A stretch of 64,000 bases of DNA, from contig JABLXW010000004.1 in the NCBI GenBank assembly GCA_013177945.1, forward strand, positions 1-64,000. The letters are read 5' to 3'. The translations under genes were made by a program, and so were the position numbers. Position 1 is the stretch's first letter. Every line of letters begins with the position of its first letter. Positions 26,519 to 33,013 of the stretch are shown here, one piece after another. The notes beneath the pieces are model-generated. The model saw only the letters and a list, made by a program, of their open reading frames with translations, searched no databases and was not told the origin of the DNA. This DNA comes from Bacillota bacterium (GTDB lineage Bacteria > Bacillota > DSM-12270 > Thermacetogeniales > Thermacetogeniaceae).

Positions 26519-26594
26519 TGGTGACCCGTAGGGGATTCGAACCCCTGTTACCGGCTTGAAAGGCCGGTGTCTTAGACCACTTGACCAACGGGCC
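26519..26594 (-). tRNA. tRNA-Glu (anticodon UUC)
   Basis: The minus strand folds as a cloverleaf: acceptor GGCCCGT with ACGGGTC, anticodon loop CTTTCAA between CCGGC and GCCGG, T-arm GGGGTTCGAATCCCC, and an encoded 3' CCA (26521-26519). It is the last of three tRNAs in the cluster. Confidence 0.95.
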
Positions 26595-26610
26595 CCTGAT
26601 CTCCGTTTAA

Positions 26611-26687
26611 TGGTAGCGGCGGAGGGATTCGAACCCCCGACACTGCGGGTATGAACCGCATGCTCTGACCAGCTGAGCTACGCCGCC
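26611..26687 (-). tRNA. tRNA with CAU anticodon (elongator Met or Ile2)
   Basis: Acceptor GGCGGCG, D-arm GCTCAGCTGGTCAGAGC, anticodon loop TTCATAC, a GGTTCGAATC T-arm and encoded CCA. The lack of the three stacked G-C pairs of initiator tRNA points to elongator methionine. A lysidine-modified tRNA-Ile2, the TilS substrate, cannot be excluded by eye. Confidence 0.9.
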
Positions 26688-26698
26688 ATAAGAAGTTT

Positions 26699-26774
26699 TG
26701 GTAGCGGGGGCTGGATTCGAACCAGCGACCTTCGGGTTATGAGCCCGACGAGCTGACCACTGCTCCACCCCGCA
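26699..26774 (-). tRNA. Initiator tRNA-fMet (anticodon CAU)
   Basis: The anticodon arm is CGGGCTCATAACCCG, with the three consecutive G-C pairs diagnostic of initiator tRNA. The 1-72 pair is mismatched (U-U), as expected for an initiator. The T-arm CTGGTTCGAATCCAG and an encoded CCA (26701-26699) are present. It is the first tRNA of the cluster. Confidence 0.92.
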
Positions 26775-30481: not shown

Positions 30482-32389
30482 TTAAAAGATCTCTTCGGGG
30501 AGGTCTTTGATATCCGCGTACTTAAACACGGGGCCATCCTGGCAGACAAAGACCGGACCGATCTGGCAGTTGCCGCACTTCTTAATTCCGCAGCTCATGC
30601 GGCGCTCGAGGGAGACGTAAATCTGCTCCGGACTGAAGCCCCGCGCCAGGAGCCCCCGCACCACAAACTTCATCATGATCTCGGGACCGCAGGTGATCAT
30701 GATGGTGTTTTCGGGTCTGGAGGCCATCTTGTCGAACAGGGTGGTCACGACACCGATGTTGTGGCCCCACTCAACTCCCGGCGGGACGTAGTCCACCGTG
30801 AGATAAAGCCGCGTGTTCGGGATCTTCCGCCACTCCTCAAACTCATCGGTGAAGAGCATGTCATTGGGAGTGCGGGCGCCGTAAAGGATTTCAAAATCAC
30901 CGTACTGGTCGCGGCGCGCCTGGATGTACTTGATTACAGGGCGCAAGGGGGCAAGACCGATCCCTCCGGCAACCAGGAGCACGTTCTTGCCTTTCATTTC
31001 CTCGACAGGCCAGCCCACACCGTAGGGTCCCCGGATCCCGACAATGTCCCCGACCTGGAGCTTGGCAAGGGCATTGGTGACGTTGCCCACCGCACGGATT
31101 GTATGATCAAAGGAATCCTTCACATCCGCGCAGGAGCTGATGGAGATCGGAGCCTCTCCGATTCCGAAGATGCTGATCATATTGAAGACGCCGGGATCGT
31201 AGGTGTAGGCCTCCTGAACCTTGGCATCCACAAAGGCGAAGGTGTAGGTGGTAGTGTCCTTCGTCTGCGGCTTGATCGCCTTGATGACCGCTTTCTGCGG
31301 CTCCCAGGGGCTCTTCTCGGGGGTGATCTTCTTGATCACGGGGGTGAAGAGTTTTACTTCCTTGGGCGGGTTGGGATTGGCCTGGATCGCAGCAACAATT
31401 TCAACCGGATCGATGGACTTGATGCAGGTGGAAACGCAGCGCCCACATCCCACGCAGCCGGGTGATCCTTCAAACTGCTGGCTGAAGTAGGCTAATTTGT
31501 GGAAAATCCGCTGCTTGATCCGCGCCGCCCGGTCGGGACGAAAGATGTGGTCAAGCGCAACCCGGGAGAACTCGTAGAACATGCAGGAGTCCCAGGTCCT
31601 CGGGCGCTCCCCGGATTTGAGCGTGAGGTCGACGTAGTCCTTAACCCCGAAGCAGAAGCAGGTGGGGCAAACAGTGGTGCAGGTGCCGCAGGCAAGACAT
31701 TCCTCTTTAAGTTCTTCCCACTTGGGATGCTCAACGTTCTGATGGAGGAGTTCGCCCAGGTTTTCAGCATCGATCCGCCGCGTGATCTTCTGCTGGCAGG
31801 CCCGCAACGCCTTATTCCTGGCAATCAGGTCGTCCGCGGAGGCGGCCGCCAGACCTGCAGCCAGTTCTTTTCCTGCTGCGCTTCCCACTTCGACAACGTA
31901 CCTGTCGCCTATATCCGTCAGGGCAAGATCAAACCCGGCATCCATTGCCGGCCCCGTATTGAAGGAAGAGCAGAAGCCGTTTTCGCAGGGCGCCACACAG
32001 TTCAAGCCGATGATCACGGTGTTTTCGCGGCGGGCCTTGTAATAGGGATCGGGATATGTCCCCAGAAAAACCTTATCCAGGCTGAGCAGAGCGTTAACAT
32101 CGCAGGGATGAACCCCAAAGAGAACCTGTTTCCCTACTTTTTCGCCCTCTCCCGCAATCTCCACCGCCCCGTCAAATTTAAAAAGGGTCTCAACCGGCCG
32201 GTGGAAATACTTCTTCGGGGGCAGGATTGTGGTGTCGTAATCAAGGCGCAAATCTTCCGCAGCAGCAATAGGGCCAAAGACAAACTCCGTGTCCTTTGCA
32301 ACGGGGCCGAAGACTTCGTAATCAGCCTTTAGCTTTGCCACAAAGCCGCCCAACTCTGCTTTCGGGAGCACAAATGCTTCCACTGGCAA
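30482..32389 (-). CDS. hydBG: Fused sulfhydrogenase beta-gamma (iron-sulfur/diaphorase) subunit
   Basis: 635 aa, corresponding to the separate HydB and HydG of Pyrococcus sulfhydrogenase I. Residues 1 to about 345 match HydB, with two ferredoxin-type clusters (cysteines 231-244 and 312-322). Residues about 350-635 match HydG: an FAD/NAD(P)-binding ferredoxin-reductase fold (RGPYGVGWPVEE, LLVAGGIGLAPLRPV, TCGPEIMMK) and a terminal [2Fe-2S] site (CGIKKCGNCQIG). It passes electrons between NAD(P)H and the hydrogenase. The start is TTG at 32389, with GGGAGGTG just upstream. The reading frame is continuous across the joint. The gene opens the operon. Confidence 0.92.
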   Translation of the reverse strand: MPVEAFVLPKAELGGFVAKLKADYEVFGPVAKDTEFVFGPIAAAEDLRLDYDTTILPPKKYFHRPVETLFKFDGAVEIAGEGEKVGKQVLFGVHPCDVNALLSLDKVFLGTYPDPYYKARRENTVIIGLNCVAPCENGFCSSFNTGPAMDAGFDLALTDIGDRYVVEVGSAAGKELAAGLAAASADDLIARNKALRACQQKITRRIDAENLGELLHQNVEHPKWEELKEECLACGTCTTVCPTCFCFGVKDYVDLTLKSGERPRTWDSCMFYEFSRVALDHIFRPDRAARIKQRIFHKLAYFSQQFEGSPGCVGCGRCVSTCIKSIDPVEIVAAIQANPNPPKEVKLFTPVIKKITPEKSPWEPQKAVIKAIKPQTKDTTTYTFAFVDAKVQEAYTYDPGVFNMISIFGIGEAPISISSCADVKDSFDHTIRAVGNVTNALAKLQVGDIVGIRGPYGVGWPVEEMKGKNVLLVAGGIGLAPLRPVIKYIQARRDQYGDFEILYGARTPNDMLFTDEFEEWRKIPNTRLYLTVDYVPPGVEWGHNIGVVTTLFDKMASRPENTIMITCGPEIMMKFVVRGLLARGFSPEQIYVSLERRMSCGIKKCGNCQIGPVFVCQDGPVFKYADIKDLPEEIF

Positions 32390-32414
32390 AATACACCTCC
32401 CACAAAAATTAGAT

Positions 32415-32540
32415 GTGAACTACTCCTCCTCGCAAAGAAGGAGCTTCCTGCTTCATCGAGGAAACCTCTCCCGCAGGCGTAACTTCCCGCAGTCCCTGCG
32501 GTAGCCCGCCCCTCTCCTCTCCCTTAAAGCAAATTTTCTA
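32415..32540 (-). mobile_element. IS200/IS605-family right-end remnant with degenerate tnpB tail
   Basis: On the minus strand the segment ends in GAGGAGGAGTAGTTCAC (at 32415) after a hairpin CTCCT...AGGAG and GATGAAGCAGGAAGC. This is the characteristic right end and omega-RNA 3' region of IS605-type elements. One frame reads GLREVTPAGEVSSMKQEAP, reminiscent of TnpB C-terminal tails, but is stopped about 40 codons upstream. No intact tnpA, tnpB or left end was found. The element stops 26 nt before the hydrogenase start codon. Confidence 0.55.
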
Positions 32541-33013
32541 AGGAGATTCCCCGGCGGGAATTAAAGAGCACTACTTCTGGAATCCCCCCCTCTCACCTCC
32601 TACTGCCAGTTCTCCAAACAATTCCCCTTCACCTGAGTCTGGGCAGCATGAAACAACGCAGGGCACAAAAAAGGGGCTGCAATGTATTGTCCGTCCGGTG
32701 GGAAAAACGTGCGGTAAAGGAACCTGAGCTGAACAAAGACTGCCTTAGATTTATTCTACATGCAGGGGTAAAATCCTCCTGAAAATTTATCGATCTACCT
32801 CAAATTTGATTCGACATTTTTTCTGGAAATCCTCGTTTATGCAGTAAAAAGTACAAAATAAGCCGGATGGTTGGGGGAGGAGGCAAAAATGATTTCCCGC
32901 CTTGGGATTGCCTGCACCCGGGAGGGTGGTGATGGGATATATGGGACTGGGAAGGAAGGTGCTTTTGCTGCGGATTGATGAGTAAGGAAGGGTGCCTTTA
33001 AGCCCTATGAGAT
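32541..33013. other. Non-coding region upstream of hydrogenase operon
   Basis: About 470 nt with no convincing gene. A 94-codon minus-strand frame crosses it but has no family resemblance and runs into the neighbouring transporter. Part of it may be decayed tnpB sequence upstream of the right end. No consensus promoter for the hydrogenase operon was found here. Confidence 0.4.

Follow-up and report, generated by a model that had tools for sequence, protein, structure and literature searches.

As set out in the sections of the source that describe it, the PATE of Halanaerobium is composed of 28 nt of left end, the last 58 nt of tnpB, and 160 nt of right end (PMC7290912). In TnpB systems, the last ~16 nt of the reRNA come from flanking DNA, and the enzyme acts on TAM-flanked sites (PMC8612924). 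TnpB can make omega-RNA out of longer transcripts (PMC10278001), and repressors of the TldR type that work with guide RNAs are known (PMC13418256). IS200/IS605 elements target the lagging strand (PMC6006769), and the RAGATH-18 family (RF03064) comprises the reRNAs of IS607 TnpBs (PMC11061315). A literature search on solitary omega-RNAs returned no direct match.

The window examined here is a whole stretch of 64,000 nt at the start of contig JABLXW010000004.1, from a bacterium of the family Thermacetogeniaceae (Bacillota) whose genome, G000 or the host, is 2.71 Mb in size and 99.96% complete. The leader of its NiFe-hydrogenase operon contains what is very probably an ends-only miniature (PATE/MITE-like) of the IS200/IS605 family, stranded and of little or no effect. 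The kind is already known, as the ends-only IS605 miniature of which the Halanaerobium PATE is an example. At the level of sequence, the analysis establishes both ends, the structure, the absence of tnpA and tnpB, the autonomous relatives, and an empty site in the same-genus genome G002.

Extent and parts of the element

The element reads GATGAAGCAGGAAGCTCCTTCTTTGCGAGGAGGAGTAGTTCAC on the minus strand, ahead of the hydrogenase operon, and its right end, GATGAAGCAGGAAGCTCC...GGAGGAGTAGTTCAC, terminates at 32415 (Table 1). The first-pass annotation had described an orphan omega-RNA-like IS605 right end with a decayed tnpB tail and no nuclease gene nearby. The right end is recovered far above chance by a covariance model, R1, which gives the window copy 101.7 bits over 32415-32519 (E ~1e-24 for the genome); the model was trained on nine right ends, the window copy among them, and rows outside the training set score 85-95 bits. 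One frame of the remnant reads ...RATAGTAGSYACGRGFLDEAGSS..., as in real TnpB C-termini, which bears out the decayed tail. No tnpA or tnpB gene was found inside 32415-32560 by the ORF list or by tblastn, so the element is solitary, and there is likewise no nuclease gene near it. The term orphan had to be given up, because a left end is also present and the feature is therefore a 146-nt miniature spanning 32415-32560.

Table 1. Features of the miniature and of the adjoining hydrogenase operon in the window
Feature	Position	Strand	Basis or remark
Whole miniature IS200/IS605-family element, 146 nt, left and right end	32415..32560	-	Ends match autonomous IS605 and sister miniatures
Left-end part, TTCCCGCCGGGGAATCTCC...TTAAGGGAGAGGAGAGGGGC, ~53 nt	32508..32560	-	Aligned with G015, G115, and G006 left ends
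Right-end/omega-RNA-like part with tnpB-tail remnant, ~93 nt, terminating GTAGTTCAC	32415..32507	-	R1 model, consensus structure
TAM-like TTTAA adjoining the left end	32561..32565	-	Intact copies TTTTAAC; G001 copy TTTTTAC
Guide-position sequence ATCTAATTTTTGTGGG, 16 nt, 3' flank of the right end	32399..32414	-	Analogy to TnpB reRNA (PMC8612924)
First hydrogenase-operon gene (Fer4_22 + NAD_binding_1 + DHODB_Fe-S_bind)	30482..32389	-	Likely GTG start 32383
Conserved promoter AGGATTTT-N10-GTAGAAT, presumably SigH-like, upstream of the element	32753..32777	-	Leaders of relatives

The consensus structure derived from the nine right ends contains 24 pairs, with compensatory changes in 10 of them. 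When 29 copies are aligned, double-sided change is seen in 17/24 pairs and exceeds 500/500 shuffles on every measure. Because the 29-copy alignment was fitted to the R1 model, slid controls are a fairer comparison than shuffles, and against these the covariation score is 0.48 versus 0.04-0.12. An Rfam scan of the element site gave no match at the gathering level. Membership in RAGATH-18 was rejected, as the best Rfam match reaches 23.8 bits against a gathering score of 44.9 and covers only 33 nt; this sub-threshold match overlaps part of the variable loop of the window element.

The left end of the window copy is diverged. Compared with the left end of the miniature in G015, a genome of another genus, 0/1000 shuffles are as good; compared with autonomous left ends alone it reaches only the 4-5% level, with 44/1000 shuffles as good for G115 and 51/1000 for G006. 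The window TAM lacks its final C.

The operon encodes a large subunit (NiFeSe_Hases), a small subunit (Oxidored_q6), and, as its first gene product, a Fer4_22/NAD-binding protein. The right end had been placed 26 nt before a TTG start codon. The adjacency stands and the distance does not: the TTG at 32389 is a stop codon, TAG or TAA, in several orthologues, which makes the GTG at 32383 the likelier start, 31 nt from the right end. Elsewhere on the minus strand of the window are a 16S rRNA gene cut by the window edge (1-82) and three consecutive tRNA genes (26522-26774).

Autonomous relatives, sister miniatures, and the hydrogenase leaders

Autonomous elements with the same ends are present in related genomes. 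In G115, three separate insertions start TTTTAAC-TTTCCCTGCCGGGAAGTCCC..GGGATGAAAGGCAGG, matching the miniature left ends (also TTTTAAC-TTTCCCTGCCGGGAAGTCCCCGCC...GGGATGAAAGGCAGG), and G148 has the same left end. Two IS605 copies in G006 have a common 1801-bp block that starts TTAC-GATCCCCCGCCGGGAAAGCCC...GGGATGAAAGGCGGGC and contains tnpA and tnpB. A tnpB directly precedes the same RNA in G076, G049, G148, G115, and other genomes. The host itself has only a C-terminal scrap of tnpB. A pattern search located the right-end motif on 40 stretches of viral contigs, and in several of these copies tnpB stops 5-17 nt before the motif end. Right ends of the window type occur on many viral contigs, and for a considerable share of them no tnpB was detected alongside. 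The family-level and order-level genome searches covered the same 20 genomes.

Solitary copies in G015, G225, the same-genus genome G001 (hydrogenase and folD), and G000 have the same left end, followed almost directly by the right end. Besides the hydrogenase copies, such miniatures lie in the leaders of folD (G001), gcvT (G015), and an acetate transporter (G000). No close second copy of the element was found in the host genome; R1 finds one diverged copy there, at G000:C7:34453-34555 (46.7 bits). A GPR1/FUN34/YaaH-type transporter gene follows that copy at a distance of 48 nt. The G001 miniature at C1:17874-17977 has its terminus 24 nt before the folD start codon, and the G015 miniature on C3 is situated between a glycine riboswitch (RF00504) and gcvT, within the riboswitch-controlled leader.

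An almost identical junction between left end and right end at several loci indicates a mobile miniature. It is this junction, seen at no fewer than four other loci in three genomes, that makes it unlikely that a full-length IS605 inserted at the hydrogenase leader and lost its interior in place, a course of events that would be in keeping with the less deleted remnant, left end plus longer tnpB tail, at the MFS locus of G001. Orientation is the same as that of the downstream gene in 9/9 of the closest solitary copies, 7/9 of which lie within ~160 nt of its start. Lagging-strand targeting (PMC6006769) would give such an orientation bias without selection.

Among hydrogenase leaders, the element is observed in the host and in G001, where the copy lies at the matching place. 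It is absent from the hydrogenase leaders of G002, G004, G006, G010, G014, and G015, and R1 detected it in 0/49 hydrogenase loci from named genomes. Comparison of TTTTTAC-element-CGGGTGAGAAATTAAT in G001 with TTTTTAT-GGCCCAGGAAAATTAAT in G002 reveals a clean empty site in the latter. In the host, the TAM is TTTAA without C and the 3' flank is 9 nt shorter, and the left flanks of the two occupied sites align at the TAM-like site. The hydrogenase gene tree pairs G001 with G002 as sisters (bootstrap 99). By their variable loops, the copies in G000 and G001 fall into separate subtypes, and the best tree does not group them; together, the sisterhood and the different loops hint either at two insertions or at a loss from G002. 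Parallel insertion of two miniature subtypes into the two leaders, which is compatible with the explanation favored here, is thus a serious possibility, if short of probable, given that the left flanks align at the same site and that the AU test does not reject a common origin (p = 0.257).

Past mobilization by TnpA in trans, followed by stranding and passive transcription without appreciable consequence, is the history that we infer to be most likely. An element with tnpA and tnpB would have lost its interior, joining the left-end hairpin to a right end with the omega-RNA scaffold and a tnpB-tail remnant. With a suitable TnpA, and perhaps TnpB, present, such miniatures could have propagated to TTTAAC/TTAC-type sites through single-strand peel-and-paste, and the copy in the hydrogenase 5' untranslated region would be one of them. 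Once the partner enzymes were gone from the host, this copy would have been stranded there and subject to slow decay. Passive transcription within the hydrogenase leader is probable, with little or no effect. Identity of the window core to the G015 copy at gcvT is 81%, higher than the 73% of the hydrogenase gene, which fits past mobility.

The element as a leader or a guide

The promoter listed in Table 1, which we take to be SigH-like, is found in the leaders of G000, G001, G002, G006, G010, G015, and further relatives. With this conserved promoter on its upstream side, the element probably forms part of the transcribed hydrogenase 5' untranslated region. Scans for sigma-70 promoters and terminators found nothing. 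Among the relatives, promoter and ribosome site are separated by 154-274 nt in leaders that lack the element and by 363-379 nt where it is present.

The first-pass annotation had suggested that the remnant became the leader of the operon. Its probable place inside a transcribed leader agrees with the promoter upstream; a function as leader does not follow. Such a function would make the miniature a structured 5' untranslated region controlling RNA stability or translation. Its sense orientation between conserved promoter and ribosome site would suit that role, as would a structure kept in two species with compensatory differences and a core slightly more conserved than its surroundings: G000 and G001 share 82% identity over the core and right end and 71.5% over the upstream leader (Fisher p = 0.055), which leaves weak grounds for some constraint. 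Against it, the element is missing from the sister species G002 and from every other relative examined, the length of the upstream leader is unconstrained, and the core is equally similar to the gcvT copy of another genus, so that the similarity reflects the element family and not the site. The effect of the element on the predicted accessibility of the ribosome site differs between G000 and G001, and hence shows no consistent change. With 0/49 loci carrying the element as well, we regard recruitment as a functional leader as very unlikely. Less probable still is the broader proposal that gene-less, omega-RNA-bearing IS605 miniatures have been repeatedly retained in this bacterial family as sense 5' leaders of central-metabolism genes (hydrogenase, folD, gcvT, acetate transporter), acting as structured regulatory RNAs or, in TnpB-bearing cells, as guide donors.

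The leader might instead be processed to an omega-RNA for TnpB or a nuclease-dead TldR that targets the hydrogenase ribosome-site sequence or another sequence. Precedents are the production of omega-RNA from longer transcripts (PMC10278001) and the TldR repressors (PMC13418256), and the related G001 does possess an intact tnpB, paired with tnpA. In the host, neither a full TnpB or TldR nor an OrfB_IS605 domain match was found, despite its 99.96% completeness. Its sole TNB-domain match is a C-terminal scrap at C15:40157-40270, matching PF07282 only, over 33 profile positions (28-60); the scrap is without a recognizable right end of the window type. The only Y1 transposase match in the host is a 270-aa protein, TnpA_REP-like to judge from its length and weaker score.

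The guide position had been equated with the hydrogenase ribosome-site sequence; the 16 nt read from 32414 to 32399 in fact cover the start of the Shine-Dalgarno region. This sequence has one exact genomic occurrence, at the element itself, and there the element stands between it and the TAM. No TAM-flanked second target was found in the host genome. The sole other site within two mismatches lacks a TAM and fits chance, as a reversed-pattern control gave three matches. Use of the RNA by a TnpB-like protein encoded elsewhere, as the annotation had envisaged, finds no support, given the lack of TnpB, TldR, and such a target in the host, and action as a guide in trans is exceedingly improbable. 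A guide mechanism is possible where TnpB exists, as in G001, and not in the host as assembled. For the element in the window, the regulatory and trans-guide ideas are both unsupported, and a stranded miniature remains the preferred reading.

Comparison with known systems

The analysis defines a small family of omega-RNA-bearing IS605 miniatures, found in the bacterial family of the host and in one genome of another family, and often located in gene leaders. Should transcription of a copy and its binding by TnpB persist in a relative such as G001, the leader of a host mRNA could at the same time serve as precursor of a guide RNA. A right-end match near a promoter does not necessarily mark a regulator derived from TnpB; the left end, the partner genes, and the empty site come first.

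Similar to the TnpB/reRNA system of ISDra2 (PMC8612924), the window element has a right end of the kind from which the RNA derives, a ~16-nt position for the flank-derived end, and a TAM beside the left end. ISDra2 differs in that its TAM is TTGAT and in that the host of the window element is without TnpB. With the guide RNAs of TldR systems (PMC13418256), the element shares a TnpB-derived guide-RNA scaffold retained outside an intact transposon; unlike those systems, the host lacks a TldR protein and a second target flanked by a TAM. The autonomous IS605 elements (tnpA and tnpB) of G115, G148, and other relatives have left and right ends and an omega-RNA fold as in the window copy, with TTTTAAC insertion sites in the G115/G148 group, whereas the window copy is without coding sequence save the tnpB-tail remnant.

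The closest described counterpart is the PATE-like element of Halanaerobium hydrogeniformans (PMC7290912). The Halanaerobium PATE is 271 nt in length and the window element 146 nt, and the two are likened by the layout given in the sections of the source that describe it, not by sequence. The hydrogenase-leader context belongs to the window element, none being reported for the PATE in those same sections. As in the window, the element of H. hydrogeniformans is described there as a left-end hairpin followed by the tail of tnpB and a complete right end, with no tnpA.
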